From: Haloarcula nitratireducens
GTDB lineage: Archaea; Halobacteriota; Halobacteria; Halobacteriales; Haloarculaceae
Direction of reading: 5' to 3'
DNA: 24,341 nt
NCBI RefSeq assembly: GCF_019599505.1
Contig: NZ_RKLT01000037.1
Span: forward strand, 1 to 24,341
A program made the position numbers and the translations under genes. Positions 5,388 through 23,957 of the stretch are shown here, piece by piece. The number at the start of each line of letters is the position of its first letter. Within the stretch, counting starts at the first letter, position 1. Under the pieces are notes generated by a model. It was not told the origin of the DNA. It worked only from the letters and a program-made list of their open reading frames with translations, and did not search any database.

Positions 5388-5519
5388 AGAGACTGCAACA
5401 GACAGCTGGTTTATAAACGCGGCTCGTGTGTGTGACTCGATTTCAGCGTCGGAAGCGTCCGTGCAACCGGATCGAACCGCCGGGGGAGCTTCTTTGTCGT
5501 CGACGTTGTCAAAATAGAT
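5388..5519. promoter_or_regulatory. Divergent promoter region between two flavoenzyme genes
   Basis: The palindromic TATA box TTTATAAA at 5410-5417 is centred about 26 bases from the minus-strand ATG at 5387, the distance expected for a leaderless archaeal transcript. The plus-strand gene starts at 5520; its promoter is less clear, with a T-rich CTTCTTTGTC about 30 bases upstream. The shared 132-base spacer would let a single regulator act on both disulfide-reductase-type genes. Confidence 0.6.
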
Positions 5520-6881
5520 ATGGCCGACTTTGACGTCCTCGTGATCGGTGGCGGAACAGGCAACAACGTGGCTGCAGCGGCAGCCGACGCCGGACTAGAG
5601 ACGGCACTCGTCGAACCGGGTCCACTCGGTGGGACATGTCTCAACCGAGGATGCAACCCCTCGAAAATGCTCATTCAAGCTGCCAACGCGGTGAACCACG
5701 TTCGTGCCGCCGAGCAGTTCCACGTCGACGCCACCCTCAACGGCATCGACCACGCCGCAGTCGTGGACGAGATGGACGACTTGCTCGGGGGAATCGCGGA
5801 AGACATGGAGGCGCGCTACCGCGAGAAGGAGAATCTCACGCTGTTCAAAGAACGCACGGAGTTCGTCGAAGAGCGGACAGTTCGTCTTGAGGGTGAAGCT
5901 GTCACGGCCGAGAAAGTGGTCGTCGCTGCAGGGAGCCGTCCGGTCGTACCACCGATCGACGGCCTTGATGATGTGGACTACCTCACGAGTCAGGATGCCC
6001 TGTACCTCCGAGAGACGCCCGAGAGCCTCGTTATTCTCGGGGGAGGGTACATTGCCGTCGAACTGGGTTACTTTTTCGACGCGATGGGGACCGACGTGAC
6101 CGTCGTCGAGATGATGGACTCGCTGGTTCATCGTGAGGATGGCGATGTCGCCGAGGTGTTTACCGATATCGCGGCCGACCGCCACGACGTCTACACCGGC
6201 CATCGGGTGACGGCCGTCGAAGAAGCGAGTGGAGGATACGCTGTCCATGCCGAGACCGAGACCGGCGATGAGACGGCTGTCGAGGGCAGTAAGGTGCTTG
6301 TCGCACTAGGACGCCGCCCCAACAGTGATACGCTCAACCTCGAGACTGCAGGCATCGATGTCGACGATCGAGGCTTCATCGAGACTGACGAGTACCTGCA
6401 GACCACCGCCAAGAACGTCTGGGCACAGGGCGACATCGCGGGCAACGCCCTGTTCAAACACTCCGGCGACTACGAAACCCGCCACGCGGTCGCGAACGTC
6501 GTTCATGGAGAGTCACAGGCTATCGATCTCTCGGCTATGCCCCACACGATCTTCACCGAACCACAGATCGCCGGCGTCGGGGCGACCGAGGATGAGCTCA
6601 TGGACGAGGACACTAAGTACGTCGTCGGACGGGCCGATTACGCCGACTCGGCGATGGGCCGGGCGAAGAAGCTCGATCACGGGTTCGTGAAGGTTCTCGC
6701 TGCCCCCGATGGCGAGATCCTGGGCGCCCACGCCATCGGCTACGAAGCTTCCACGCTGTTGCACGAGGCCGTTCTCGCGATGCGTACTGGCGCGACCGTC
6801 GACGACGTCGCCGGGACGATTCACGCCCACCCAACGCTGAGCAAGGTGGTTGAGGCGGCCTTCCGCGACGTGTCAAGCTAA
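5520..6881 (+). CDS. Dihydrolipoamide dehydrogenase/mycothione reductase-like disulfide reductase, His-Glu dyad altered
   Basis: This 453-residue member of the class I pyridine-nucleotide disulfide oxidoreductases has FAD motif VIGGGTGNNVA (8-18), redox pair Cys40-Cys45 in GGTCLNRGCNPSKM, an NAD(P) motif LGGGYIAVELG, a second FAD motif AQGDIAG and a C-terminal dimerisation domain. The GTGNN variant in the FAD loop is more like mycothione reductase than E. coli Lpd. In the C-terminal HAHPTLSKVVE the catalytic His437-Pro438 are kept. The Glu five residues after the His, which pairs with it in Lpd and glutathione reductase, is Lys442 here. Haloarchaea use gamma-glutamylcysteine, and bis-gamma-glutamylcystine reductase belongs to this superfamily, so a low-molecular-weight disulfide is a likelier substrate than lipoamide. 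Automated names such as mercuric reductase are possible but unsupported. Confidence 0.85.
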   Translation: MADFDVLVIGGGTGNNVAAAAADAGLETALVEPGPLGGTCLNRGCNPSKMLIQAANAVNHVRAAEQFHVDATLNGIDHAAVVDEMDDLLGGIAEDMEARYREKENLTLFKERTEFVEERTVRLEGEAVTAEKVVVAAGSRPVVPPIDGLDDVDYLTSQDALYLRETPESLVILGGGYIAVELGYFFDAMGTDVTVVEMMDSLVHREDGDVAEVFTDIAADRHDVYTGHRVTAVEEASGGYAVHAETETGDETAVEGSKVLVALGRRPNSDTLNLETAGIDVDDRGFIETDEYLQTTAKNVWAQGDIAGNALFKHSGDYETRHAVANVVHGESQAIDLSAMPHTIFTEPQIAGVGATEDELMDEDTKYVVGRADYADSAMGRAKKLDHGFVKVLAAPDGEILGAHAIGYEASTLLHEAVLAMRTGATVDDVAGTIHAHPTLSKVVEAAFRDVSS

Positions 6882-7407: not shown

Positions 7408-7893
7408 TCAGCGCAGGGAGTGGTAGCTCGCGCCAAGGACTAATCCGAACACGAGGTGCGTGAGCAGGCCCATTAGTCCGAGGTTCGGCAGCGGCGGCGG
7501 GTTGGGAAAGCCGACGGCCGACAGCCCCAGTGGCATAATAACGCCGGCAGCAACGACCCAGAGGATTACGCCGTACGCGAGGCCGAGACCGACGACGCCG
7601 CCCAGCGACTCCGCGGCAGCTGCCAGCCGAGGTTGCGTCAACGCTGCGACGAAGACGACGCCGAACACCGCGCTGAGCGACATATGGACGACCCAGCCAG
7701 CGAGTCCACCGGACAGGCCGACGAGCGCCGGAATCGCGTTCTCGATAACAGGCGGCATCAGCAGCGAAAACAGCACGCCCATCACGAGTCCGCCGATCAA
7801 TCCCGCTTCCACGCCGTGTTGCCACGACGGACTGTCTCGTACAGCTCCAGTCCGTTCGAGGCCCTGCGTTTCCTGTTGTGCTTCTTGTGCCAT
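7408..7893 (-). CDS. Four-helix membrane protein of unknown function (paralog of 11852-12277)
   Basis: This 161-residue protein has a hydrophilic N-terminus and then four hydrophobic segments. The first begins GLIGGLVMGVLFSLLM, the second contains VHMSLSAVFGVVFVA, the third is GGVVGLGLAYGVILWVVAAGV and the fourth LLTHLVFGLVLGASY. It aligns by eye with the product of 11852-12277 (GLGLAYGVIL versus GLGLVYGIVL), and both keep a His at the start of helices 2 and 4. The paired histidines could bind a metal or haem, which is inference only. The ATG at 7893 is preferred over the one at 7923 because CCTTATGCC lies about 32 bases before it, as for a TATA box. I do not know an established function for this family. 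Confidence 0.7.
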   Translation of the reverse strand: MAQEAQQETQGLERTGAVRDSPSWQHGVEAGLIGGLVMGVLFSLLMPPVIENAIPALVGLSGGLAGWVVHMSLSAVFGVVFVAALTQPRLAAAAESLGGVVGLGLAYGVILWVVAAGVIMPLGLSAVGFPNPPPLPNLGLMGLLTHLVFGLVLGASYHSLR

Positions 7894-8130
7894 TGTAATG
7901 GTACTAACGTGTTCGACTGGCATAAGGTACGCAGATAGTTCAGAAAACCCGTTTTGGCCTATTTCGGGTTACCAGTCCAGTCTTGTCAGCATACTACTAG
8001 TTGTGCCTCGTTACCCCACCTGTCACGGACGTCGAAACATGACCCTTCCTCACGGTAGGTTCAACATCCAGTGGTAGACCGTGCCAAAAGCGTCGTCAGT
8101 CTTTACCGAATCAGAGATGTGCCTTCAACC

Positions 8131-10105: not shown

Positions 10106-11152
10106 CTACGCGAGCAATTCGCTTGCGAGTACGATCGCGCCGACGATGGCAAAGACGGCGCCCAGCGCCGGCTCCATAATCTCGCTGGGAACGTATTTCC
10201 CAACTCGAGTGCCGATAGTCCCGCCGATGAGGACTCCAGGAATCGACCACGCGACGACGTACCAGACGGGCGTGGCGGCCAGCGCATGGACAGCCGCGCC
10301 GGCGACCGCAGCCACCGCGAGCACGAACACGCTCGTCGCGATTGCCACTCTGGGTGGTAAGCGACACCGGACAATTAGCTGGGTGGTCGTGATCTCCGGG
10401 AGACCAGCGCTGATCAATCCTGTGATGAACCCACCGACGGTTGCCAGGCCGAGACCGGGTGGGCGCCAGCAAGTATCGTAGGTGTATATTTCACCATCGG
10501 TCGTCTCGATGGTCGTCGTTCCGCGTCCAGTGTTCTTCCGTTTCAGGAATTCACCTTCGCACTCGCCTGGGACGCAGTTCTCGGGCGGGTCGTAGTAGAC
10601 GAGGAACGCGCCCAACAGGAGGAGTCCGGCGCCGAACGCAATCGTGAGGAGCGCCGTCGGGACGATGTGGGCGGCAAATGCCCCGACTACGACGGCCGGG
10701 ACCGCGCCGAGCAGGAGCCACTTCGCCGTGGCGTAATCAACGGTACGCTGCCGGACGTAGTTCACCAATCCGTTGCCCATCCCGAACACCTCCGTCAGGA
10801 GCCCGGCACCGATCGCCTGCGAGGGAGATAGCCCGACGAGTAACATGAAGAACGGACTGAAGAACAGCGCCCCGGAGACGCCCGAGGCGAGCGCGACTAG
10901 CGAGAAGAGTATCGAAGCCGGGAACACCCACCAGTGGGCGAGGAACTGGTCAACTGGAAACCCCGCTGGCACGGGGAACGATTGTAATGAGACCGTCCCG
11001 AGGTCGATACCAGTTCCTATTCCGAGCATTGGCAGGGCGAACACTCCCGACAGTCCGACGGATCCACCGAGTACGAGAAGCTGTGCCCGGGTCATACTCG
11101 AAAACTCCAGCGGGAGAATAGCTCGTCTGGACACGCGGTCGGCCTGCGCCAC
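10106..11152 (-). CDS. TSUP (TauE/SafE) family membrane transporter, putative sulfite/sulfur-anion exporter
   Basis: This 348-residue polytopic protein has two TSUP half-repeats. The first half has LASGVSGALFFSPFFMLLVGLSPSQ (about 88-112), the family signature, and the second has VGGFITGLISAGLPEITTTQL (about 239-259). A hydrophilic loop between the halves (187-233) carries Cys193, Cys198 and Cys228. TSUP proteins export sulfite, sulfoacetate, thiosulfate or related anions, and the cysteine loop could bind metal or carry sulfur, which is inference. A second possible start is the ATG at 11095, with GGAG about 9 bases upstream, which would place the first helix right at the N-terminus. It lies 65 bases after the CMD-type gene on the same strand, possibly one transcript. 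Confidence 0.85.
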   Translation of the reverse strand: MAQADRVSRRAILPLEFSSMTRAQLLVLGGSVGLSGVFALPMLGIGTGIDLGTVSLQSFPVPAGFPVDQFLAHWWVFPASILFSLVALASGVSGALFFSPFFMLLVGLSPSQAIGAGLLTEVFGMGNGLVNYVRQRTVDYATAKWLLLGAVPAVVVGAFAAHIVPTALLTIAFGAGLLLLGAFLVYYDPPENCVPGECEGEFLKRKNTGRGTTTIETTDGEIYTYDTCWRPPGLGLATVGGFITGLISAGLPEITTTQLIVRCRLPPRVAIATSVFVLAVAAVAGAAVHALAATPVWYVVAWSIPGVLIGGTIGTRVGKYVPSEIMEPALGAVFAIVGAIVLASELLA

Positions 11153-11851: not shown

Positions 11852-12277
11852 TTACGCGACGATGCCGGCACCGAGGAAGGCGCCGAGAACGACGCCGTAG
11901 ATGACGTGAACGGTTCCAAACATCATCATCATGCTCTTATCGGGTTCCATCCCGATGATCATCCGCATCCAGAACATCATCCCTCCGATCATGAGGACGA
12001 TGCCGTAGACGAGGCCGAGACCGACGGCAACAGCGATGGAACCGAGGCTAAGCCCGATCAGCGGAACCGCGACCGCGAACACTGCACCAGCGACGATGCC
12101 GTAGACGAGGTGTAACGCCATCCCCGGCATCGCGTAGTCCTCGGGTTCGCCGCCAGCGAACTTCGCGACGAGCGCCGCCGTCGGCGGCGGCCCGCCATCT
12201 CCCATCACCATCATCGCGATGGTCATAACGATCGTTGCAACCACGCCGCCAGCGAGACCGGCAATAACTGATGCCAT
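11852..12277 (-). CDS. Four-helix membrane protein of unknown function (paralog of 7408-7893)
   Basis: This 141-residue, highly hydrophobic and Met-rich protein has four predicted helices: AGLAGGVVATIVMTIAMMVM, MALHLVYGIVAGAVFAVAV, VAVGLGLVYGIVLMIGGMMF and VHVIYGVVLGAFLGA. Between helices 1 and 2 is a polar loop, GEPEDYAMPG. The His before helix 2 and the His before helix 4 match the positions in the product of 7408-7893. The Met content (MMFWMRMIIGMEPDKSMMMM) suggests possible metal, perhaps copper, handling, but this is speculative. The ATG at 12277 is chosen over the one at 12343 because GGTTTAGTAG lies about 30 bases upstream as a TATA-like box. Confidence 0.7.
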   Translation of the reverse strand: MASVIAGLAGGVVATIVMTIAMMVMGDGGPPPTAALVAKFAGGEPEDYAMPGMALHLVYGIVAGAVFAVAVPLIGLSLGSIAVAVGLGLVYGIVLMIGGMMFWMRMIIGMEPDKSMMMMFGTVHVIYGVVLGAFLGAGIVA

Positions 12278-12512
12278 GAGTTCAGTTCTATCAGACGCAA
12301 GAGGACTACTAAACCACGATGCGAGCGTTGAAGAGAGACGCACACCCGCGAAACCATCTGAAACTGTCGGTACGGAATATCTGATAGAGTCATATAGAGA
12401 GACGGAATGAAGCTGGGAATATGTGTAACCGAGGGCTGATCTGCCTGCACTCGCGTGGCCGGTCAGTGTCGGTGTTTCGGTCAGGGTTGATTATTACGCT
12501 GGGTGCGAATGG

Positions 12513-13793
12513 ATGAACATGACTGGAGAGGATACAGATCCCGTTCTCTATCCAAATAGACGGAACCCACCCACCTCAGCGGAAGGGGTGTCTCGTCGAA
12601 ACTTACTCGCTGGGAGCGCAACTGCCGGGGTCGTAGCGACGGCGGGATGCGTCGGTGGAGATGGCGGCAGCGAACCCGCCGAACAGCCGACGGTGTTCGT
12701 TTTCAACACTGGCGACGGCACGGTGAGTCTGATCGATCCCGAGAGTGACGAACTCGTCGAGACACGAGCTATCGACCTCTCGTCGTCGTTTCCCTCGAAT
12801 CAGTACACGCCGGGCCTGACTGACGACTTGGACGACTCGCTGTGGCTTAATGTCGGTCGCGGGGTTCGGGGCCTCGCAGTCGGGTCGCTTTCAGAGACGG
12901 CAGCAGTCGAGACGGGATCCGGCGCGAACTGGCTCGAACAGACGCCCGACGGGAGCTACGTCATCGTCAGCGCCAGAGAGCCCAGTCACAGACAGTTCCG
13001 GCTCGACGCCGATTCGGACTCGGAAACATTCGGTGAGGTGACCGCAGAGATCGATCGGACCCCGGAGGGCGGGCGTGATGACAGAGGCGGCCCCGGCCCG
13101 TGTGACGTCACGATACACCCTGATGGTGAATATGCGTACGTTCCGGATCTCTTCGGAGACACACTGACCGTCCTATCGGTCGAGCCGTTCGAAATCGTTA
13201 CTCAGGTGGATGTAGAACCAGTCGAGGACGAACCTGCTCGCCCCTGGATGGGAACCGTTGCACCGGACGGGCAAACCCTGCTCGTCGAGCACAACGAGGC
13301 CAACGGGGGTAGCGAAAGTATCTGGACGCTCAACGATCCAGCCGAACCAAGCGAGACAGCGAGACTGACGGCCGAAGACGGACTCGGACGACGTCCACTG
13401 ACCAGTGAGATTGGTCCGGGCTCCGAGACCGGATACGTGTTCACTCCAGGCTCGAACGACGTGACTGTCGTTGACCTCACGGACGGAACCGTGACAACAC
13501 GACTCGACCTTGGTGGAGCAGCATTCGTCGGGACGTGGGACCCCCCACGGACGAAGCTCTACGTACCTGTTCAGACCGCCGACGAGGTGGCAGTGATCGA
13601 TCACGAGCGCAGGAAAGTAATCGAGCGGATCAGCGTCGGGCCGAGTCCATACGGGGCAACATCGGCCCAGGTCCGGCCACAGAGCGATCTGTCCGCTTCA
13701 ATGGCTCTCGCAATGGCTCGACTCGGCATTTCGGGCGAGCAGCCTGAGACGACCTACTGTATCGGGAACTGCGCGTGCGGCCATCGATTGTGA
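12513..13793 (+). CDS. Tat lipoprotein with YVTN-type beta-propeller and C-terminal CxxxCxCxH tail
   Basis: This 426-residue protein has Tat motif SRRNLLAG (27-34) after an unusually long polar N-region, and a lipobox ending at Cys46. The body is a seven-bladed-propeller-type sequence of the YncE/YVTN class: TVFVFNTGDGTVSLID, CDVTIHPDGEYAYVPDLFGDTLTVLS-like blades, a FTPGSNDVTVVDLTDGTV blade and LYVPVQTADEVAVID near the end. The last residues carry Cys416, Cys420, Cys422 and His424, a compact potential metal site at the end of an exposed tail. The signal predicts an extracytoplasmic, lipid-anchored protein. A TATA-like TTATTAC lies at 12491-12497; the spacing suits initiation at the third codon (12519) slightly better. 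It is followed on the same strand by the TrxR-like gene. Confidence 0.8.
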   Translation: MNMTGEDTDPVLYPNRRNPPTSAEGVSRRNLLAGSATAGVVATAGCVGGDGGSEPAEQPTVFVFNTGDGTVSLIDPESDELVETRAIDLSSSFPSNQYTPGLTDDLDDSLWLNVGRGVRGLAVGSLSETAAVETGSGANWLEQTPDGSYVIVSAREPSHRQFRLDADSDSETFGEVTAEIDRTPEGGRDDRGGPGPCDVTIHPDGEYAYVPDLFGDTLTVLSVEPFEIVTQVDVEPVEDEPARPWMGTVAPDGQTLLVEHNEANGGSESIWTLNDPAEPSETARLTAEDGLGRRPLTSEIGPGSETGYVFTPGSNDVTVVDLTDGTVTTRLDLGGAAFVGTWDPPRTKLYVPVQTADEVAVIDHERRKVIERISVGPSPYGATSAQVRPQSDLSASMALAMARLGISGEQPETTYCIGNCACGHRL

Positions 13794-13862: not shown

Positions 13863-14888
13863 ATGGCATCAGATTCCACAGAGCAACACGAGTACGAAGT
13901 CCTCGTAGTCGGCGGCGGCCCCGCTGGGATGACAGCAGCCCTGTACAGCACGCGACTCGGGCATGATACGGCCGTCGTCAACCGTGGTGGTGGGCGGGCA
14001 GCGATGATGCAGGAGGTCCACAATCTCCTCGGCGTGAAAGAGGAGACGAGTGGCGCGGAGTTTCTCGGCATCGGGCAAGAACAGCTCGAAGCGTACGGGT
14101 GCAAGATCCACCGCGACATGGTCACAACCTGTTCGCGGACCGACTCGGATAGAATCCGACTATCCGGTAATAGCTCGGAGTATGAAGCCGATCGTGTCGT
14201 TCTCGCGACCGGGTTCAACGACGTTCGGCCGGAGCCGCCGCTCCCCAGGACCGGGCGTGGTCTCCACTATTGTCTACACTGTGACGCCCACATGTTCGTC
14301 GACGAGTCGGTATACGTGATGGGACACGCCGAGAGCGCCGCCCACGTCGCAGCTATCATGCTGAATTTCACCGACGAGGTCGACCTGCTCACTCGCGGTA
14401 ACGACCCCGAGTGGAGTGAGGAAACTGCCGAGATGCTTGAAAACCATCCGATTGAAGTCATCCACGACGACGTCTCGGGCGTCCAGAACGGCGAGGACGG
14501 CTGGCTGAAAGCCCTTGAATTCGAGGATGGAAGCAATCGTGAATACAAAGGCGGGTTCGCCATGTACGGCGCCGAGTACAACAACGGGCTCGCCAGGGAG
14601 CTCGGGTGTGAGCTCAACGACGACGGCACGATTGAGGTGGACGACCACGGACGAACGTCGGTCGACGACGTCTACGCCGTCGGCGACTGTACGCCGGGCC
14701 ACAATCAGATACCAGTCGCGCTCGGGCAGGGCGCAAAAGCCGGAATCGACGTCCATTTCCAGCTCCGAGACTTCCCACGGGATCCCGAGCTCCTCAAAGA
14801 GCAGGGACCGGTGCGTTCCGAAGAAGTCCCGGGGATTCCCGACGAACTACTCGAGCAAGCTGTTGATTTCCACACGTACGGAAAATGA
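13863..14888 (+). CDS. Thioredoxin reductase-like flavoprotein
   Basis: This 341-residue enzyme has the low-molecular-weight thioredoxin reductase layout: FAD motif VVGGGPAGMTA (15-25), redox pair Cys137-Leu-His-Cys140 (bacterial TrxR has CATC at the same place), a degenerate NAD(P) motif MGHAESAAHVA (153-163) and a C-terminal FAD motif YAVGDC followed by QIPVALGQGAKAG. The NAD(P) loop GHAESA differs from the usual GxGxxA, so cofactor use may differ; some archaeal and clostridial TrxR-like proteins use other donors such as ferredoxin. The expected role is transfer of electrons to a thioredoxin- or glutaredoxin-like partner in the cytoplasm. It is convergent with the peroxiredoxin gene (24-base gap) and follows the propeller lipoprotein by 69 bases. 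Confidence 0.85.
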   Translation: MASDSTEQHEYEVLVVGGGPAGMTAALYSTRLGHDTAVVNRGGGRAAMMQEVHNLLGVKEETSGAEFLGIGQEQLEAYGCKIHRDMVTTCSRTDSDRIRLSGNSSEYEADRVVLATGFNDVRPEPPLPRTGRGLHYCLHCDAHMFVDESVYVMGHAESAAHVAAIMLNFTDEVDLLTRGNDPEWSEETAEMLENHPIEVIHDDVSGVQNGEDGWLKALEFEDGSNREYKGGFAMYGAEYNNGLARELGCELNDDGTIEVDDHGRTSVDDVYAVGDCTPGHNQIPVALGQGAKAGIDVHFQLRDFPRDPELLKEQGPVRSEEVPGIPDELLEQAVDFHTYGK

Positions 14889-14912
14889 AAGCGTTCCGGC
14901 GGTGCAGAGCGG

Positions 14913-15428
14913 TTAGACTGGTTCTTCGGATTCGTCGATAGCACACTCGTCGTCCCGGCAGTTCGTCGCCTTCCGCAACGCGCCAAGGTCGGGCTGTTCG
15001 TCAGGACTACGAGCAGACCATGCAAACTGGATGATACGATCGGCATCGACGACGAACGTAGCTCGGCGTGGAACGTCGCGATGGTTCTCGAATTCTTCCG
15101 TTAGTACTCCGTATGCCTGGCTCACCTGTCCATCAGTATCCGATAGAAGCGGGAACTGGATGTTGTGCTTGTCTGCGTATTCGCGATGGGTGTAGGCACT
15201 ATCTGACCCCAGACCGAGGACAACGACATCATCCAAGAGTGTGAGCCAGTCGGCGTCGCGTAAGGAACACCACTGGTCGGTACACGCTGGGTGAAAATCG
15301 AAGGGATAGAAGACCAGAACCACCGCCCAGCCTCGATCCGTGTACTCGGAAAGTCCGTGCGTTTCGATCGTCCCAGCGGCCGCTCCGGGAAGCGTGAAAT
15401 CCGGTGCTTCCTGTCCTATACGAATCAT
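14913..15428 (-). CDS. Peroxiredoxin, BCP/PrxQ type
   Basis: This 171-residue AhpC/TSA-fold protein starts with IGQEAPDFTLPG. The active-site segment is FYPFDFHPACTDQWC. In BCP/PrxQ proteins the equivalent is FTPGCTxEAC, with the peroxidatic Cys in TPGC and the resolving Cys five residues on. Here these are Cys49 and Cys54, and the conserved Thr is His46. The active-site Arg of the family is probably in PRRATFVVD. Two further cysteines, in NCRDDEC near the C-terminus, could act as an extra disulfide. The ATG at 15428 starts the protein directly at the conserved N-terminus, so an upstream in-frame ATG at 15485 is rejected. It lies 75 bases after the NAD(P)H-hydrate epimerase-like gene on the same strand and may share its transcript. 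It probably detoxifies peroxide with electrons from a thioredoxin. Confidence 0.85.
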   Translation of the reverse strand: MIRIGQEAPDFTLPGAAAGTIETHGLSEYTDRGWAVVLVFYPFDFHPACTDQWCSLRDADWLTLLDDVVVLGLGSDSAYTHREYADKHNIQFPLLSDTDGQVSQAYGVLTEEFENHRDVPRRATFVVDADRIIQFAWSARSPDEQPDLGALRKATNCRDDECAIDESEEPV

Positions 15429-15503
15429 GAGAACTAGTAACGCAACCACGGACTTCAAGAAACGGGGGGTGTGCAACGGCGTCACACAGAAGCGAACGGC
15501 GAC

Positions 15504-16223: not shown

Positions 16224-16345
16224 GCCTCAGTCATGGTGGAGCAGAGACAAATACCTCGCCAGTGGCGTCCGAAGCGGCCGAAACGCGTCCTGCCTCCAAT
16301 GCGGCTGTTCACAGGTGTTATTGATTGGCCTACCCTCCTTGGTGT
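16224..16345. promoter_or_regulatory. Divergent promoter region (YjeF_N gene and DUF3179 gene)
   Basis: On the minus strand GGTATTTGT (16248-16256 in plus coordinates) is centred about 28 bases from the ATG at 16223. On the plus strand TTATTGATT (16318-16326) is centred about 24 bases from the ATG at 16346. Both placements fit leaderless archaeal promoters, supporting these start choices. Confidence 0.5.
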
Positions 16346-17341
16346 ATGCACATTCAGGACGTCCTCCCCCGGGACGCGATTCCAAGTGTCGACGATCCTA
16401 CCTTCGGCACGGAATACATCGGAGACGATGACGACGATGTAATCGTCGTCGAAACCACGCCTGCGCGGGCGTATCCGGTACGGATTCTCAGCTATCACGA
16501 GATTGTCAACGATATGCTCGGAGATAGCGACCGCATAGAATCAGGGAGGTGCTCACCCGGTGACTCTACCGACGAGTCGCGCCCGGTCGCGGTCACATGG
16601 TGTCCAATCTGTGCCAGTGCGGTCGTTTACGACCGACGGGTCGACGATCGCGTGTTGACGTTTGGAACCTCCGGAAAACTTGCTGACGACGCGCTGGTGA
16701 TGTACGATCGCGAAACCGAATCGGAGTGGAAACAGCCGCTCGGAAAGGCGATCAAGGGGCCGCTCGACGGGCACGAACTTTCCGTTGTGCCCGCGTCTGT
16801 CATATCGTGGGAGCAATTTCGCTCGGACTACCCCGACGGAATCGTCCTCCAGCCGATTCATGGCGGTGACGGAGATCCGCGAGGAGAATCACCGCAAACG
16901 GTGTACAAGATGACTCCGTACGAGCGATACGACGCAGCGGAAGGGTTCGGTCTCAGAGAAATGCGTGGTGAAGGGAGGGAACGGTCGTGGGAACACGAGG
17001 ACATCGACGCCAAGACGGTGGTGTTAGGTATCACACACAGAGGAGATGCCGTCGGGTATCCAGTCGAGCAGGTCCAGAACGTGGGTGGTGTCGTCTCAGA
17101 TACAGTGGGCGGTCTCGACGTGCTCATCGTCAGCTCCAGGGATGATATTCACGGGTTCGAAGATCCCGGCTACAAGTTCGAATTTCGGGAGGGAATGCTG
17201 TACGGCGACGGGGCTAAATGGGATACTACAACGGGCCGAAGTGACGACGGTCGTACGCTGGCACGAGTACCAAGTCGACGGCTCTACGCCTTCGCCTGGC
17301 AGGATGACCACGGCCCGAAGAGCTTCTACGGACTCACGTGA
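16346..17341 (+). CDS. DUF3179 domain protein, cytoplasmic form
   Basis: This 331-residue protein covers the DUF3179 domain almost end to end. Recognisable parts are AIPSVDDPTF (11-20), AYPVRILSYHEIVNDMLGD (42-60, with His51), the cysteine motif TWCPICASAVVYDR with Cys86 and Cys89, FGTSGKLADDALVMYDRETES, and a C-terminal VPSRRLYAFAW segment where others have THTFDAMWFAW-like sequence. There is no signal peptide or lipobox, in contrast to the second DUF3179 protein at 22186. The ATG at 16346 is preferred over the TTG at 16325 because it places the protein at the expected leaderless distance from a TATA-like box. The biochemical role of the family is unknown; the CPxC motif suggests metal or thiol chemistry (inference). 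Confidence 0.85.
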   Translation: MHIQDVLPRDAIPSVDDPTFGTEYIGDDDDDVIVVETTPARAYPVRILSYHEIVNDMLGDSDRIESGRCSPGDSTDESRPVAVTWCPICASAVVYDRRVDDRVLTFGTSGKLADDALVMYDRETESEWKQPLGKAIKGPLDGHELSVVPASVISWEQFRSDYPDGIVLQPIHGGDGDPRGESPQTVYKMTPYERYDAAEGFGLREMRGEGRERSWEHEDIDAKTVVLGITHRGDAVGYPVEQVQNVGGVVSDTVGGLDVLIVSSRDDIHGFEDPGYKFEFREGMLYGDGAKWDTTTGRSDDGRTLARVPSRRLYAFAWQDDHGPKSFYGLT

Positions 17342-17738: not shown

Positions 17739-19160
17739 ATGAACGAAGTCGATTTTCTGGTCATCGGATCCGGCTCCGGTTTGGATGTCGCGAACGCCGC
17801 AGCCAACCGCGGACAATCCGTTGCAGTCGTAGAGAAAGGACCGCTCGGCGGGACGTGTCTCAACCGTGGATGCATACCGTCCAAGATGCTGCTCTACCAT
17901 GCAGACGTATTCGAGACGATAGAGAGTGCCGGCTCCTTCCACATCGACGCAGAGATTACCGATGTGGACTTCGCGGAGATGGTTCGCGAGGTCAACAAGG
18001 ACGTGAGTGGCGACGCCGATTCTATCCGGGAAGGACTCCGTTCCTCCTCGCAACACGATCTCTACGAAGGTGAGGGCCGATTCGTGGACGAACGAACGGT
18101 CGAAATCGTCAGCGGTGTGGATGAAGGAGCCCGAATTCGAGCCGAGACAGTGCTGATCGCTGCCGGGACGCGGCCGGCAATCCCCGATATCGACGGGATC
18201 GACGACGTGGACTACCTCACCAGTACCGAAGCGCTGCAGTTGGAAACCCCACCGGACCACCTCGTGATCATCGGGGGCGGGTACATCGCTGCCGAACTCG
18301 GTCACTTCTTCGGCACGTTTGGGAGCGATGTGACGATCATCGGGCGGCGACCGAATCTCCTTCCGGAGGCCGACGAAGAGGTTTCCGAGGCCTTCACCGA
18401 CCGATACGCCGATCGGTTCACCGTTCACACTGGCTATGCGGCGACGACTGCCTCGGAGAGCGGCGGTACCGTAACCGTCGAAGCCCACCCCTACGAGTAT
18501 GGAGACGACGGCGGGATGCGTGAAGACGAGTCGGTTACCGTGACGGGGGATACGCTACTCGTAGCCGCTGGCCGCACTCCGAACTCCGATATCCTCGATC
18601 TCGATACGACAGCAGTCCAAACAGACGAGCGAGGCTTCATCGAGACCGACGAGTATCTCCAGACGACCGCCGAAGGCGTCTGGGCGCTTGGGGACATCGT
18701 CGGCGAGTATCTTCTGAAGCACAGTGCTAACCACGAAGCCCAGGCCGTCGCGCGAAACCTCTTCGGCGACGACCTCCAGCCGGTCGACTACACTGCGATG
18801 CCCTTCGCTGTGTTCGCGTCACCAGAAGTCGCAGGGGTAGGTGCACACGAATCTGAACTTCAGGAAGCCGGCACGGAATATGCGACGCGGACCTATCGGT
18901 ACGACCAGACAGCACGTGGAAGTGCAATGAAAGCCGACGGCTTCGTCAAGGTCATCATCGACTTGGAAGGAGAGATTCTGGGCTGTCATATCATCGGTCC
19001 CGAAGCCGCCGATCTCATTCAGGAGGTCGTCGTCGCGATGAAAGCCGGGTCGGGGACAGTCACGGATATTCGCGAATCCGTTCATATTCACCCTGCACTC
19101 TCAGAGGTAGTTCAGCGAGCGTTCTCGGGGCAGTTCTCCCGAGGCGGCCACTCGCACTGA
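17739..19160 (+). CDS. Dihydrolipoamide dehydrogenase/mycothione reductase-like disulfide reductase
   Basis: This 473-residue class I disulfide reductase is a paralog of 5520-6881. The FAD motif is VIGSGSGLDVA (8-18), the redox pair is Cys40-Cys45 in GGTCLNRGCIPSKM, the NAD(P) motif is IGGGYIAAELG, and the C-terminal dyad is intact with His451 and Glu456 in HIHPALSEVVQ. GSGSGLDVA together with HPALxEVV recalls mycothione reductase rather than true Lpd. Residues of a His-rich end (RGGHSH) follow the usual C-terminus. There are no E2, E3-partner or 2-oxoacid dehydrogenase genes nearby, so a complex-bound Lpd role is unlikely. Bis-gamma-glutamylcystine or another small disulfide is a plausible substrate in a haloarchaeon, by inference. 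A good TATA-like box supports the ATG at 17739. Confidence 0.85.
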   Translation: MNEVDFLVIGSGSGLDVANAAANRGQSVAVVEKGPLGGTCLNRGCIPSKMLLYHADVFETIESAGSFHIDAEITDVDFAEMVREVNKDVSGDADSIREGLRSSSQHDLYEGEGRFVDERTVEIVSGVDEGARIRAETVLIAAGTRPAIPDIDGIDDVDYLTSTEALQLETPPDHLVIIGGGYIAAELGHFFGTFGSDVTIIGRRPNLLPEADEEVSEAFTDRYADRFTVHTGYAATTASESGGTVTVEAHPYEYGDDGGMREDESVTVTGDTLLVAAGRTPNSDILDLDTTAVQTDERGFIETDEYLQTTAEGVWALGDIVGEYLLKHSANHEAQAVARNLFGDDLQPVDYTAMPFAVFASPEVAGVGAHESELQEAGTEYATRTYRYDQTARGSAMKADGFVKVIIDLEGEILGCHIIGPEAADLIQEVVVAMKAGSGTVTDIRESVHIHPALSEVVQRAFSGQFSRGGHSH

Positions 19161-19273
19161 TCCTGAAGGGAACCTTTACATCGATCAGTGAGTGGAAGCT
19201 CAGTCACACCTGTGTGCTTCAGCTGCACAGTTGCTGAAGACATAACCAGTAGTCGCTCCTCGGTGCGGTTGGA

Positions 19274-19579
19274 ATGTTAGTAGTCCATGCGGCGTTTCCG
19301 ATCGCTGTGGAACATCACGATAGAGCGACTGAATTAATCCGAGAACTAGCCGAGCATTCACGGGAGGAGGAAGGAATCATCGAGTACCGAGTTGCGACCG
19401 ACGTAGACGACGAGAATCTCTTCCGGTTTTTCGAACAGTACGAGGACGAAGCAGCATTTGAAGCACACGCTGAATCCGACCACTTCGAACGGTTCGAGGC
19501 TGAACTACCGAAGTTACTTGCAGGAGAGCCAGAGGTAACCCGCTTCGAAGTCGACTCGGCAACAGACGTCGAACTCTGA
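19274..19579 (+). CDS. Antibiotic biosynthesis monooxygenase (ABM/YgiN-like) family protein
   Basis: This 101-residue protein has the dimeric alpha-beta barrel pattern of the ABM family: a first beta strand MLVVHAAFPI, helix HHDRATELIRELAEHSREEEGIIEYRV (14-40), then FRFFEQYEDEAAFEAHAESDHFERFEAELPKLL (50-82) and a last strand EVTRFEV. The EGxxxY and YxxxxAFxAH segments are family hallmarks. Members include quinol monooxygenase YgiN and haem-degrading enzymes, as well as many proteins of unknown substrate; no specific one can be assigned. It lies 113 bases after the disulfide reductase gene, probably with its own promoter (GACATAACC upstream). Confidence 0.8.
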   Translation: MLVVHAAFPIAVEHHDRATELIRELAEHSREEEGIIEYRVATDVDDENLFRFFEQYEDEAAFEAHAESDHFERFEAELPKLLAGEPEVTRFEVDSATDVEL

Positions 19580-19713
19580 CCCGAAACACGCTCGAAGAGG
19601 TCCACAGACCCCCGGCGTTCAGTTCCAACTGACCACGTGTGGGTCCCGTCAGTCGCCACGGGATACATAAATCACATTCGCAAGCGTATCATCGTTGCAC
19701 GGCCGCAGACGGA

Positions 19714-19720
19714 TTATATC
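19714..19720 (+). promoter_or_regulatory. TATA box of the DsrE gene
   Basis: TTATATC is centred 29 bases before the ATG at 19746. This supports that start over upstream in-frame alternatives and a leaderless or nearly leaderless transcript. Confidence 0.6.
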
Positions 19721-19745
19721 CTCAGGGACTGTACCAGCTGATGCA

Positions 19746-20102
19746 ATGACAAAAGCAGCAGTTGTGATTCTCGCTGGGACGGAAGGACATGCGAACTTGG
19801 GTCGTATCGTTAACGCTCTCGAAACGGCGAAGGAGTTCGCAGAGACCGACGGAGACGAGCTAGAGCTCATCTTCGATGGAGCTGGAACTCAGTGGATCCC
19901 CGAACTCGAAGATCCGGACAGTGACCAGCACGAACTCTACCAGGCCGTCAAGGATGATGCGTCCGCGTGTGATTACTGCTCCGGGGCGTTCGGTGTCGAT
20001 GATGCAGTGAACGATTCCGGCGTAGTTCGACTCGATGACCACGACGGCCACCCCAGCATCCGTTCGCTTGTCGACGACGGCTACGAAGTCATCACCTTCT
20101 AA
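19746..20102 (+). CDS. DsrE/DsrF-like family protein
   Basis: This 118-residue small Rossmann-like protein opens with TKAAVVILAGTEGHANLGRIVNALETAKEF, a strand followed by a long helix, then LELIFDGAGTQWIPEL. The conserved thiol site is Cys75-Asp-Tyr-Cys78 in ACDYCSGAFGVDDAV. DsrE-family proteins carry or transfer sulfane sulfur together with TusA, DsrF/H or rhodanese partners; none of those is in this window. The single-subunit haloarchaeal form with a CxxC-like site may act in persulfide handling alongside the CoADR-type enzyme at 3978, which is inference. The start is fixed by the TATA box and by the family N-terminus. Confidence 0.8.
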   Translation: MTKAAVVILAGTEGHANLGRIVNALETAKEFAETDGDELELIFDGAGTQWIPELEDPDSDQHELYQAVKDDASACDYCSGAFGVDDAVNDSGVVRLDDHDGHPSIRSLVDDGYEVITF

Positions 20103-20592
20103 GATTCCGCTAGCCGTTCATGAATTAGCGGCTTCACGCATGAGGTGTTCGATCAGTTGCAGGCCGAATCGGAGACAAAGCGGACGAGGCGGGGATTCGC
20201 GTTGAGTACGTTAACGCAGCGTATACTTCGCAGACGTGCCACGCCTTGTGGTCGTTTCGGTCGACGGAACGAACAGGCTGAACTTGTATGCCCACACAAC
20301 AATTGTCAGTATCATAATTCCACACAGATATCAACGCGGCAGCGAATATCGCCAGTCGCGTCAACCCGTAGAAGAGAGCATCAGTCGGGAATCCGGCCGC
20401 GATGACTCGCCACAGGATGGGAGCGCATGTGTCAGTATCATACTCCACCGTGAGACGAGCGAGAAATTTTCGCAGATGACGTATGCGGTCTACTCGGACT
20501 GAAACCTGCTAGAATGGATTCTCCTTGTAGGGGAAGCCTCGCCGTTTACCGCGGAAGAGATGTCACTTGAAATTTCGTTGACCGTGACAATC
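20103..20592. other. Gene-poor stretch, possible decayed mobile element
   Basis: No convincing gene lies in these 490 bases. Frames of up to 104 codons exist, but their composition is Arg/Cys/Thr-rich and they show no family pattern. A palindrome-like GCCGTTCATGAATTAGCGGC lies near the start (20113-20132). A 12-base direct repeat, GTCAGTATCATA, occurs at 20305-20316 and 20431-20442. A hairpin like the right end of IS200/IS605-type elements lies at the far side (20526-20566). Together they suggest a shrunken, non-autonomous element, but the boundaries are not fixed. Confidence 0.35.
20526..20566 (+). repeat. IS200/IS605-type right-end-like sequence (remnant)
   Basis: The segment contains AAGCCTCGCCGTTTAC (20533-20548), matching the minus-strand string in 175-215 except for one pyrimidine, followed by GCGG and a GATGTCAC tail. 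Haloarchaeal TnpB-type elements, as I remember them, end with such a hairpin and a GATGTCA-like tail. The stem is imperfect here and no TnpB gene lies upstream, so this would be a decayed or solo end. Confidence 0.4.
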
Positions 20593-21195
20593 CTATCCGA
20601 TCTCTACAGGACAGCCGGCAACTTCGCCGCCGCGCATCCCGTCTGCCAACCAGTAAATCGAGAGGAGGAGTGCCCCGAACGCGAGTATTGAGAATTCTAA
20701 CCCATCTAGTGGCAACACCGTGAGCAGACCAGTCGCCCCGAACAGCGATAACACACCGGCGAGGATGGCAGAGCCACAGGCAGCACAGCCAGCGCCAAGC
20801 GTCCCGAGGAAGACGCCAGCGATGCTGCCAGAGCCCTCACGAAGACCGAGACGATGCTCACGAATGTGGTAGGTCAACATCGCCGCGTTGATACCGAATA
20901 GGCCAGCTGTGAGAAGGAGGAACCCTGACGTAACCGGTGTGAACGCGCTTCCGACGACAGGGTAGAGACCGACGAGGACAGCGATTCGTGCCTCCAGCGG
21001 AAGACCACCACCGACGACGACGTCTTGGACGAATTGGATATTCTGTGAGAGGACGAAAACCGACAGACCAAGCAGGCTGCCGACGAAAGCGAGGGCTGCG
21101 TACACTGGAAGGGAAACGACGAGTCTAGCCGTTCTGAAGATGAGTTGCCAGTCGCTGGTGTCGGTCGGTAGTTGAACACCGCGTCTTGAGCTCAT
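20593..21195 (-). CDS. Polytopic membrane protein with GCAACG motif, coupled to a DsbA-like lipoprotein
   Basis: This 200-residue protein has about five hydrophobic segments (about 26-50, 70-84, 90-108, 125-155, 157-184). A Cys137-Ala-Ala-Cys140 pair lies at the start of the fourth segment in GTLGAGCAACGSAILAGVLSLFG. Cys195 is in the C-terminal tail. The ATG overlaps the stop of the upstream thioredoxin-fold lipoprotein as ATGA, so translation is coupled. A CxxC in the membrane beside an exported thioredoxin-fold protein suggests a DsbB- or CcdA-like electron-relay role, but it is not recognisably either family. By eye it is homologous to the product of 23282-23881 in length, helix order and the GLFGINAAMLTYH/GLVGLNLGLTYLA region. 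Confidence 0.75.
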   Translation of the reverse strand: MSSRRGVQLPTDTSDWQLIFRTARLVVSLPVYAALAFVGSLLGLSVFVLSQNIQFVQDVVVGGGLPLEARIAVLVGLYPVVGSAFTPVTSGFLLLTAGLFGINAAMLTYHIREHRLGLREGSGSIAGVFLGTLGAGCAACGSAILAGVLSLFGATGLLTVLPLDGLEFSILAFGALLLSIYWLADGMRGGEVAGCPVEIG

Positions 21196-21914
21196 AATCC
21201 GAGTGAGTTCTTGAATACGCCGTAGCTCTGGCTGCCAGACACGCGTGAGCGGTATTCGGCGTCCCGGAACAGGAAGAACGTCGGCGTACTGCTGACATCC
21301 GCGTCTTCCCGGACCGTGCTATCCGACTGGATGGCCGCCTCGTACTTACCTTGCTTTGCCTCGTCAACGACGGCAGCGGCGTCGGCACTGGTTTCTCCTT
21401 CAAGGTATGTCTGGGACTTCGAGAAAACGTTGTTCGTCGAGAAACTTTCCTGGTTCTCATAGAAGTGCGACTTGAGTGACCAGAAGGCCGTCGCGTCGTG
21501 AGCGTAGGTCGCTTCCAAGATCTGTGTCGCGGGCATCGCCCATTGTTGGACGTGCGGAAACGTTCGATAGACGAACGAGAGGCGTCCGGGGTCGATAAGT
21601 TTCGACCGAAGTTCCGGAAACGTTCCTGTTTCGAAGCTCTGACAAGCGTGGCAAGATGGGTCCTCGAAGGCAATAATCGTCGCCTCTCCCTCCCCAATGT
21701 CGGGCCCGAGCGTCGGTTCGTCGGCCACCCCTTTTGCGGCGATATGAGCGAGTGGTGTCTCCGGGGATTGATCAGCAGTGTTCTGGTTCTTAGTGGTGGA
21801 ACTCTGCCTATCGTTCGTAGCCCCGTTCTGGTTGCTACCGAGGCAACCGGCGAGGAGGGGTGTCGTAGACAATGCGGTGAGAAAGCGTCGTCGGGTACCA
21901 GCTTTTTCACCCAT
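21192..21914 (-). CDS. Tat lipoprotein with DsbA-like thioredoxin fold
   Basis: This 240-residue protein has Tat motif TRRRFLTAL (7-15) and a lipobox ending at Cys24 (LLAGC), followed by a Thr/Asn/Gln-rich linker to about 50. The DsbA-type domain (Thioredoxin_4) begins GEATIIAFEDPSCHACQSFE, with active-site Cys88-His-Ala-Cys91. The inserted helical region covers about 110-200. The cis-proline loop SSTPTFFLF follows. These features indicate an extracytoplasmic thiol-disulfide oxidoreductase anchored to the membrane. It is the first gene of a two-gene unit with the GCAACG membrane protein (ATGA overlap). The ATG at 21917 is an equally possible start one codon earlier. Whether it makes, breaks or shuffles disulfides cannot be decided from sequence. 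Confidence 0.85.
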   Translation of the reverse strand: MGEKAGTRRRFLTALSTTPLLAGCLGSNQNGATNDRQSSTTKNQNTADQSPETPLAHIAAKGVADEPTLGPDIGEGEATIIAFEDPSCHACQSFETGTFPELRSKLIDPGRLSFVYRTFPHVQQWAMPATQILEATYAHDATAFWSLKSHFYENQESFSTNNVFSKSQTYLEGETSADAAAVVDEAKQGKYEAAIQSDSTVREDADVSSTPTFFLFRDAEYRSRVSGSQSYGVFKNSLGL

Positions 21915-21917
21915 CAT

Positions 21918-22185
21918 TGGCTGGATGGGTCTCTATAGCCAGATATTCGTAACACGGCGAAGGGTAGTTCAGAATCGGTATTTATTCTACTGTAGTTTCG
22001 CGTCAGCCACGCATAATTGGGCAATATTTATGTATAATTATTTTATTCTTCAATTAGAGTTTATAAAGATAGAAAAGAGAGTATTGAGGCTAATATCTCA
22101 TAATTCGAAGGGAATTAATCAGAGTGTGTGAGTGAGGCACACGACCGGTCAACTGTTAATCCTCTATCAGCCGTTCTATCCGTTA
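21918..22185. promoter_or_regulatory. AT-rich divergent promoter region
   Basis: This spacer separates the minus-strand DsbA-like unit from the plus-strand DUF3179 unit. The 60 bases at 22021-22080 contain only 11 G or C, far below the rest of the window. Several TATA-like strings occur (ATATTTATG, TATAATTATTTTATT, TTTATAAAG). On the minus side GAATATC lies about 33 bases before the lipoprotein start. The composition may mark a foreign segment or a strongly melting regulatory region. Confidence 0.5.
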
Positions 22186-23295
22186 ATGGAATTCACCCGA
22201 CGCCAGTTCGTCGCAGTAGCCGGGCTCAGTGCATTCGCTGGCTGTACCAGCGACCCAGACCGTAATTCGGAGAGAGATCCGGCCACGACAGCGGGGTCAA
22301 GTGATATCGGATCAACATCAGTTGCTGACGGAGCCGTCCCGACTGCCGATGAGACGCTGAAATTGCCGATGGAACCCAGTGATCTCGAATCACTCGCAGT
22401 TTCGGGCGGCCCACCCAAAGACGGGATTCCATCCATCGACGACCCCTCGTTCGTCGGGCCAGATGGTGTCGATTTCCTCGACCCCGGCGATCCCGTATTC
22501 GGCGTTGCACTGAACGGTGATGTGAAGGCATACCCACAGAAAATCCTCGTTCAACACGAGATCGTCAATGACCGTCTCGGTGACCGCTCCGTGGCAGTGA
22601 CGTACTGCCCGCTGACGGGGACTGTCCAGGGGTTCGAGCGCGGGCAGACGACCTTTGGTGTCTCTGGCCGCCTGATCAACAACAATCTCGTCATGTACGA
22701 TCGGGCAACAGAGACCTGGTGGCCACAGATTCTCGCCACGTCGATACCTGGGCCGTGGAACTCGGCCCCCGGAACCAGATCGTTACGGGAGTTCAGACTC
22801 GTATGGACAACCTGGGAACAGTGGCGGGGGCTTTATCCTAATACCCAGGTCCTTTCGACGGAGACGGGCTTCGCAAACAACTACGGCAGAGACCCGTACG
22901 GCTCATACAACCCGCGTAGTGGATACTATACCAGTGAGAACACGCTCTTCGAAACGCTCGAGGAAGACGACCGGTTCAGCCGGAAGCGCGTCTTCATGGG
23001 TGCCCGGACTGCTGACGGGGCCGTCGCGTTCGACAAATCTACGCTCCTCGAAAAGCGGATCCTGACGGGCGAACTGAGCGAGACACCGATTGTCGCAGTC
23101 GCCGACCAACGTCTGAATACCGGGTACGTCTATCTGAACCCTGACGAACGGACAGTCACGACCGACGGTAACAGGGTGTTAGTTGGGGATTCCTCGTACG
23201 AACCGAACGCTTTGCCGCTCACGGGAATCCACACCTTTGATGCGATGTGGTTCGCCTGGCACGGATACTATCCAGAGACCAATGTCTACGCGTAA
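22186..23295 (+). CDS. DUF3179 domain Tat lipoprotein
   Basis: This 369-residue protein has Tat motif TRRQFVAVAG (4-13) and lipobox Cys20 (AFAGC), then a Ser/Thr/Asp linker to about 55. The DUF3179 domain follows: GIPSIDDPSFV (80-90), AYPQKILVQHEIVNDRLGD (115-133, His124), VTYCPLTGTVQGFER with Cys141 alone, FGVSGRLINNNLVMYDRATETWW, and the terminal GIHTFDAMWFAWHGYYPE. Where the cytoplasmic paralog at 16346 has CPIC this protein has CPLT. The ATG at 22186 is required for a proper signal peptide; longer frames from 22132 add an unsuitable extension. Its last 14 bases overlap the start of the membrane-protein gene at 23282, so the pair is co-translated. Function is unknown. Confidence 0.85.
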   Translation: MEFTRRQFVAVAGLSAFAGCTSDPDRNSERDPATTAGSSDIGSTSVADGAVPTADETLKLPMEPSDLESLAVSGGPPKDGIPSIDDPSFVGPDGVDFLDPGDPVFGVALNGDVKAYPQKILVQHEIVNDRLGDRSVAVTYCPLTGTVQGFERGQTTFGVSGRLINNNLVMYDRATETWWPQILATSIPGPWNSAPGTRSLREFRLVWTTWEQWRGLYPNTQVLSTETGFANNYGRDPYGSYNPRSGYYTSENTLFETLEEDDRFSRKRVFMGARTADGAVAFDKSTLLEKRILTGELSETPIVAVADQRLNTGYVYLNPDERTVTTDGNRVLVGDSSYEPNALPLTGIHTFDAMWFAWHGYYPETNVYA

Positions 23296-23881
23296 CAACG
23301 CCCCTTTCGGGTGGCTCGGAACTGCCGTCTCCCGAACGATCGCAGCCACGGCAGCGGTATTCCGTCGCCCTGATGCGACGCTCGTCGTCGTCGGAACGGC
23401 AGTTGGATATCTCTTGATCTACCTCTACGCACTTGGGCATCTGGCACCGGGTATCGGCGGGTTTGACGTAACCGTCGTCTCTGGCGCTCTGGGAAAGTTC
23501 TTCCAGCCGCAGCTCGGCCCATTTTCGTTCACTCCCGTTGCTCGCGTATCAGTCGGCCCGGTGACCTACTTGTTTTCGCTCAACACGGTCTTAGGTCTGG
23601 GTATCGCTGGATTGGTCGGTTTGAACCTCGGACTCACGTATCTTGCCTGGCGCCAGCCCGCAGCCTGCGGAATCGGGTCCTCGTCGTCAGGATTCCTCGC
23701 AAGCATTCCGGCGGTTCTGTCGGGAACCGCCTGCTGTGGACCTGTTATCCTCATCGTCCTCGGAATCCAAGCATCGGGCATTATCGTGACAGCGTTCCAG
23801 TTTCTGTTGCCGATTGCCGTCGTGCTATTGCTCGGGAGCCTCGTCCTTGTCGGTCGACAGATCGATCCAGCGAGACTCTGA
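23282..23881 (+). CDS. Polytopic membrane protein with ACCGP motif, coupled to the DUF3179 lipoprotein
   Basis: This 199-residue protein has about five hydrophobic segments (32-52, 60-75, 95-122, 136-163, 167-190). Adjacent Cys151-Cys152 lie in SGTACCGPVILIVLGIQASG, and Cys129 is in the loop before. The pattern FLASIPAVLSGTACCGPVIL corresponds to FLGTLGAGCAACGSAIL of the product of 20593-21195, so the two look like diverged paralogs with CC in place of CxxC. The CCGP-type motif also occurs in small membrane proteins linked to metal handling and thiol relay, but none is established for this family. The start at 23282 lies 14 bases inside the upstream gene, a translationally coupled arrangement; longer starts would run through the DUF3179 domain and are rejected. 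Confidence 0.75.
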   Translation: MSTRNNAPFGWLGTAVSRTIAATAAVFRRPDATLVVVGTAVGYLLIYLYALGHLAPGIGGFDVTVVSGALGKFFQPQLGPFSFTPVARVSVGPVTYLFSLNTVLGLGIAGLVGLNLGLTYLAWRQPAACGIGSSSSGFLASIPAVLSGTACCGPVILIVLGIQASGIIVTAFQFLLPIAVVLLLGSLVLVGRQIDPARL

Positions 23882-23957
23882 GTGGAGTTTTTCCGTCATT
23901 GAGGGGATAATCAGGGTCTCATCTACAGATTAGAATACGGTCTGGAGAGAATGTCCA

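Follow-up and report, generated by a model that had tools for sequence, protein, structure and literature searches.

What does a DUF3179 lipoprotein do with the cysteine-bearing membrane protein encoded directly behind it? The question is raised by a stretch of 24,341 nt from Haloarcula nitratireducens (assembly GCF_019599505.1, contig NZ_RKLT01000037.1; the whole stretch is called the window here), in which the sequence and its open reading frames (ORFs) reveal two divergent couplets arranged head to head: a thioredoxin-fold lipoprotein (TRX) with the membrane protein MP1, reading left, and a DUF3179 lipoprotein with the membrane protein MP2, reading right. DUF3179 is widespread, and a search of the open-access literature, which leaves out most subscription papers, turned up no study of its function. 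We report that one of the two motif cysteines of DUF3179 is gone in precisely the lineage that has an adjoining MP2, which hints at a transmembrane thiol relay shared by the two proteins. The DUF3179 and MP2 genes would then make up a module that relays its load by thiols across the haloarchaeal membrane, electrons being slightly favored as the load, a reading to which we give not quite even chances. The features concerned, with a second DUF3179 gene of the window for comparison, are the following.

20593..21195, minus strand: MP1, membrane protein of 200 amino acids (aa), partner of TRX; ORF without a Pfam match
20776..20787, minus strand: CAAC motif of MP1, residues 137-140; from sequence and conservation, coordinates calculated from the ORF
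21192..21917, minus strand: TRX, twin-arginine translocation (Tat) lipoprotein with a DsbA-like thioredoxin fold; Pfam Thioredoxin_4, E 5.3e-19
21642-21653, minus strand: CHAC motif of TRX, residues 89-92; from sequence
21918..22185, no strand: AT-rich intergenic region of 268 bases separating the divergent couplets; 38.8% GC
22186..23295, plus strand: DUF3179 Tat lipoprotein, 369 aa, single-thiol form YCPLTG; Pfam PF11376, E 7.4e-89
22606..22617, plus strand: CPLT motif of DUF3179, C141-T144; from sequence and comparison of CPLT with CPxC forms
23282..23881, plus strand: MP2, MerT-like membrane protein, 199 aa, partner of the CPLT DUF3179; from ORF, conservation, linkage and model
23732..23737, plus strand: vicinal Cys pair C151-C152 of MP2 (TACCGP); in 40/40 aligned proteins, low-confidence model
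16325..17341, plus strand: second DUF3179 gene, two-Cys form WCPIC, comparison case; from ORF and Pfam

The motif of DUF3179 and the presence of MP2 are tightly linked. In a class sample of 116 Halobacteria genomes, 60 of which carry DUF3179, we tabulated 81 DUF3179 genes, leaving out 12 places with only partial DUF3179 matches, locus L009 and three repeat rows. MP2 is adjacent to all 44 genes with the single-Cys CPLT motif, to none of the 30 with CPLC or CPIC, and to none of the seven without a CP motif. From the other side, every full-length MP2 match in the same genomes (45/45) is directly preceded by a same-strand DUF3179 match. The 30 CPxC genes divide into nine YCPLC genes with Tat-lipoprotein starts and 21 WCP[LI]C genes mostly without. 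CPLC is also the motif in all of the best 120 relatives of a Thiothrix DUF3179 and in four bacterial plasmid DUF3179 loci; these four loci have no MP2 match. C141 is present in 75/75 distinct CPLT proteins, and the second most frequent Cys position after residue 30 in nine; in the window protein, the lipobox C20 and C141 are the only cysteines. In a tree of 102 DUF3179 proteins, all 56 CPLT rows lie on one side of one branch (98/96), i.e., one change. Neither the DUF3179-MP2 pairing nor the link between CPLT and MP2 was found in the open-access literature, which, with most subscription papers outside the search, does not prove them new.

The second DUF3179 of the window (16325-17341) has no visible export signal and no MP2, and it groups in the tree with the MP2-less CxxC proteins. 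Signal-less WCPIC and exported CPLT forms, which share the window, co-occur in other genomes as well (e.g., G001 and G032). A DUF3179 (seleno)protein annotated in Haloarcula marina (L129, 7503-8960) sits on a very long branch, and no CP motif could be located in it.

Both couplets recur independently of each other. Searched from the MP2 side in GTDB genomes, DUF3179 stands immediately upstream of MP2 on the same strand in 38/39 loci, so the pairing is not peculiar to the window, a point on which the first-pass annotation had staked its proposal. The odd one out is L032, whose MP2 is shortened internally; two of the paired loci (L004 and L013) have a DUF3179 broken into at least two frames. Among 148 phylum-drawn genomes, for which the share outside Halobacteria is not given, MP2 was found in nine, all of them already in the class sample. 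A decayed couplet (L181, 3568-4234) retains a DUF3179 piece and an MP2 match that ends before the CC pair. MP1 has 28 strong matches in 27/116 Halobacteria genomes, and TRX lies directly upstream in 26/27 fetched loci, the second MP1 match of genome G056 not being among those fetched. In four plasmid MP1 regions, TRX overlaps MP1 in one, lies 1 to 3 kb away in two and is absent from one. Each couplet of the window is tightly packed, TRX and MP1 sharing four bases (ATGA) and DUF3179 and MP2 sharing 14, and the region between the couplets has 38.8% GC vs 58.7% for the whole window. A twin-arginine stretch and a lipobox cysteine (C25 in TRX, C20 in DUF3179) can be read by eye at the start of both lipoproteins. 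The couplet positions, strands, overlaps and AT-rich gap given in the first-pass annotation agree with the sequence and its ORFs.

The head-to-head arrangement of both couplets is local. MP1 has no match in any of 108 fetched DUF3179+MP2 loci, some of which were fetched twice and many of which are short. Among the same loci, a piece of TRX occurs only in L001, the nearest relative, which keeps DUF3179-MP2 at 90% DNA identity and 112 codons of a TRX frame, without an MP1 match. A DNA search with 20500-23900 against a plasmid collection returned no record covering 80% of the region. The head-to-head pair as a unit was rejected.

By their profiles, MP1 and MP2 are distant homologues of common descent, as had been proposed by eye. 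Pairwise search is too weak to detect this (BLASTP, E 0.24), and shallow profiles reach only E 0.0025 (probability 12%). These values are what would be expected if the likeness reflected convergence of small membrane proteins and a coincidental gene layout, as would the MP2-MP3 and MP4-MP1 comparisons with two further subfamilies, which barely exceed their shuffled controls (25.0 vs 23.3 and 38.4 vs 37.5, respectively). However, a broader profile-profile comparison (43 MP2, 25 MP1) scores 35.9 (E 1.4e-4, probability 52%) against a maximum of 25.6 among 25 block-shuffled controls. The MP1 profile matches one MP2 protein at E 5.9e-5, and a second MP1 profile matches the same gene at 5.6e-4; the MP2 profile matches two MP1 proteins, only at E 0.002 and 0.006. 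The alignment spans the preceding helix with its G-x-N motif and the Cys motif, placing C140-G of MP1 opposite C152-G of MP2. The subfamilies extend the picture: MP3 is close to MP1 (84.7 vs a shuffle maximum of 33.6), and MP4, of ~410 residues, is close to MP2 (65.5 vs 39.2), its profile matching one MP2 protein at E 1.1e-6; MP4-MP3 (16.9) stays under its shuffle maximum of 25.9. Convergence is therefore, in our view, very improbable, and the check for unrelated membrane proteins suggested in the first-pass annotation returned no refutation.

The cysteines of both membrane proteins are strictly kept. In MP1, C137-A-A-C140 lies in a hydrophobic segment and C195 close to the C terminus; all three cysteines are at 1.00 across 120 aligned homologues, the window protein included. 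In MP2, C129, C151 and C152 are invariant in the 40/40 proteins first aligned, which range down to about 40% identity, and C129 is the sole conserved cysteine besides the vicinal pair. In the MP2 model (mean pLDDT 69, low confidence), an N-terminal helix at residues 8-28 precedes four membrane helices, of which the third is interrupted at the CC motif; the five-helix description is doubtful. MP3 proteins (L157-L159, L167-L180) carry GCASCG-type motifs, and many MP4 proteins (L162-L165, L232-L253) carry CTCGCCGP or CCCCGP.

The homologous membrane proteins differ in their lipoprotein partner by subfamily. MP3 stands beside TRX in 14/17 loci, the two genes being co-directional or divergent depending on the genome; of the exceptions, L170 and L172 lack TRX and L177 has it about 2 kb off. 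The TRX and DUF3179 partners look unrelated, as was first noted, and belong to different Pfam families. TRX scores 69.4 bits against Thioredoxin_4 (cut-off 23.2), and its C89 and C92 are present in at least 95% of 29 aligned sequences. It also matches the Rcas_1661 family thioredoxin-like (seleno)lipoprotein (NF041057) at E 1.5e-12, but at 47.6 bits vs a cut-off of 190, and it has CHAC and no selenocysteine; no paper on Rcas_1661 was found in the open-access literature. The window DUF3179 is a clear member of PF11376 (298.5 bits, cut-off 27), differing from the CPxC forms examined, which lack MP2, in being a single-thiol CPLT form that is exported and sits beside MP2. DUF3179 relatives number 7,986 at E <=0.001 among 7,999 candidates scored. 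The DUF3179 model (pLDDT 87.4) consists largely of beta structure and contains an internal duplication; no thioredoxin was found among the structural matches listed, which leaves one possible beyond them. The suggestion that DUF3179 takes the place of a thioredoxin-fold partner thus holds only for gene position.

How might such a couplet work? The starting point is a DUF3179 that begins as a Tat lipoprotein, has a single conserved thiol (C141) in its mature part and is encoded directly before MP2. MP2 in turn keeps two adjacent cysteines within a hydrophobic segment and one more in the loop before it, and its homologue MP1 has the corresponding tie to a thioredoxin lipoprotein with CHAC. We infer that C141 would react with, or hand its load to, the C151-C152 pair, which would replace the second cysteine that other DUF3179 proteins (CPLC) carry themselves. 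The relay would continue through C129, which lies on the cytoplasmic side provided that the charge pattern has been interpreted correctly. The load would slightly more probably be electrons, through thiol-disulfide exchange, than a soft metal ion. It would work in the manner of MerP-MerT or of DsbA with its membrane partner, an analogy rather than a claim of membership in either system. The thiol or metal relay with exchangeable modules proposed in the first-pass annotation is upheld in its homologous membrane proteins and in partners that differ by subfamily, while the relay itself stays a proposal.

DsbA with a membrane redox partner (DsbB, VKOR) is a known system. TRX-MP1 resembles it in setting a thioredoxin-fold lipoprotein beside a CxxC membrane protein; it differs in that MP1 has no Pfam match and in that DUF3179 occupies the lipoprotein position of the MP2 couplet. 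A redox load is favored because of this paralogous TRX couplet, the predicted selenoprotein forms, and the redox genes in the window and near six of nine plasmid couplets. Two reviews (PMC9312934, PMC13188914) include DUF3179 in their tables of selenoprotein families, with selenocysteine at UxxC/T, and both DUF3179 and MerT have predicted selenoprotein members. A redox hint for DUF3179 was therefore already in print, and the couplet does not supply the first functional clue, contrary to what had been claimed.

Soft-metal transfer would use the same residues: C141 of DUF3179 as a MerP-like ligand would pass a thiophilic ion (e.g., Hg(II) or Cu(I)) to the CC pair of MP2 and then to C129. We regard this as rather unlikely, if a serious competitor. 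Like MerP-MerT, the couplet joins an extracytoplasmic thiol protein to a small membrane protein that has two vicinal cysteines and a further one in a loop, and 27/43 MP2 proteins show weak similarity to MerT at E <=0.1 (best 6.8e-5). According to PMC5715351, the CC pair in a membrane helix of MerT is needed for Hg(II) transport, the accepted mercury route runs from MerP to the MerT CC pair and on to a cytoplasmic cysteine, and the second, cytoplasmic Cys pair of MerT is Cys76/Cys82. A metal load is favored because of the MerT match and the copper-protein genes near four of nine plasmid couplets, one of which lies amid genes for a heavy-metal P-type ATPase, a multicopper oxidase and plastocyanin; a cupredoxin gene lies near the related MP4 in 3/21 fetched loci. 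However, the window MP2 reaches only 18.9 bits against MerT (PF02411), under the cut-off of 32.9. Its CC pair is modeled, weakly, in the third membrane helix rather than the first as in MerT, it has one loop cysteine (C129) in place of a second cytoplasmic pair, and in 38/39 loci DUF3179 fills the place of MerP. No Pfam match to MerP (HMA), MerB or MerR was found among the 23 window proteins scanned, and none of these is named in nine annotated plasmid couplet regions, whose annotation is incomplete. The two dihydrolipoamide-dehydrogenase-like window proteins lack the terminal Cys pair described for MerA in PMC5715351. In addition, the paralogue MP1 is paired with a CHAC thioredoxin, a redox protein, and 18/21 MP4 loci have no cupredoxin inside the fetched flank.

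The conservation of DUF3179 itself could point elsewhere. H124, E125, N128, D129, C141, D172 and Q181 are at least 95% conserved in the CPLT, CPLC-lipoprotein, Thiothrix-relative and signal-less forms, that is, in all forms compared, and the forms without MP2 evidently manage alone. DUF3179 may accordingly use a polar pocket for catalysis or binding, with MP2 only anchoring or stabilizing it and the MP2 cysteines being structural or otherwise employed. We consider this improbable, as the lipoprotein is already anchored and purely structural cysteines would not be expected to be kept in 40/40 MP2 proteins down to about 40% identity. A mapping of DUF3179 onto Rieske proteins was also tried. Rieske-type proteins head the VIA-align list for the DUF3179 model, and the H124-x16-C141 spacing, kept in 51/52 aligned DUF3179 proteins, equals the commonest Rieske spacing (14/24 domains). 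The aligned DUF3179 proteins do not show the Rieske ligand pattern C-x-H ... C-x2-H in their motif region, and the DUF3179 profile scores 15.2 against 24 haloarchaeal Rieske domains, inside 40 shuffles reaching 19.5. The mapping was dropped because the profile comparison left H124 and C141 unaligned to Rieske residues and scored within the shuffles.

Several points weigh against the thiol relay. CPLT is a single clade, and therefore the motif-partner link is one evolutionary event; the Fisher p of 6e-24 for this link is overstated, as the counts are not independent. The loss of the second motif cysteine thus probably happened once and was long kept, and this is the main weakness of the argument. 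The Cys patterns of MP1 and MP2 are unlike, CxxC with a C-terminal cysteine vs CC with a loop cysteine. The CC-bearing helix of MP2 is modeled with a pLDDT near 50, and with so weak a model one can only guess how deep the Cys pair lies and on which side C129 is. Contact between DUF3179 and MP2, and transfer of electrons or metal, are what we infer. In 60 couplet loci, no cluster besides DUF3179 and MP2 occurs in more than 11, some clusters resembling antisense frames, and a conserved neighborhood beyond the couplet was rejected on this count. The nine plasmid neighborhoods (MP2 in all, CPLT read for eight) are mixed, with thiol/sulfur redox genes in 6/9 and copper-protein genes in 4/9, as counted by eye without a control.

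Beyond the single couplet, a common Cys membrane protein may have been re-tasked by partner swap, with a thioredoxin lipoprotein, DUF3179 and perhaps others for MP4, DUF3179 having dispensed with a resolving cysteine of its own when the membrane protein came to provide one; we hold this wider proposal with less assurance, as possible but on the doubtful side. If true, MerT-like membrane thiol proteins extend beyond mercury resistance and can switch partners. The natural comparison between CPLC alone and CPLT with a three-Cys membrane protein points to the working residue of DUF3179 and to a testable partner in genetically tractable haloarchaea.

The rest of the window includes a thiol/sulfur redox island (3978-6881, 10106-11152, 13863-15485 and 17739-20102) with four pyridine nucleotide-disulfide oxidoreductases, a peroxiredoxin, TauE and a DsrE-like protein; genes like these recur near some DUF3179-MP2 couplets. 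A beta-propeller-like protein with a Tat-like start is encoded at 12513-13793 and ends in a Cys-rich tail (CIGNCACGHRL). Two small hydrophobic proteins (7408-7923 and 11852-12343) are alike by eye, the former without a Pfam match and the latter with a sub-threshold match to DUF6789.

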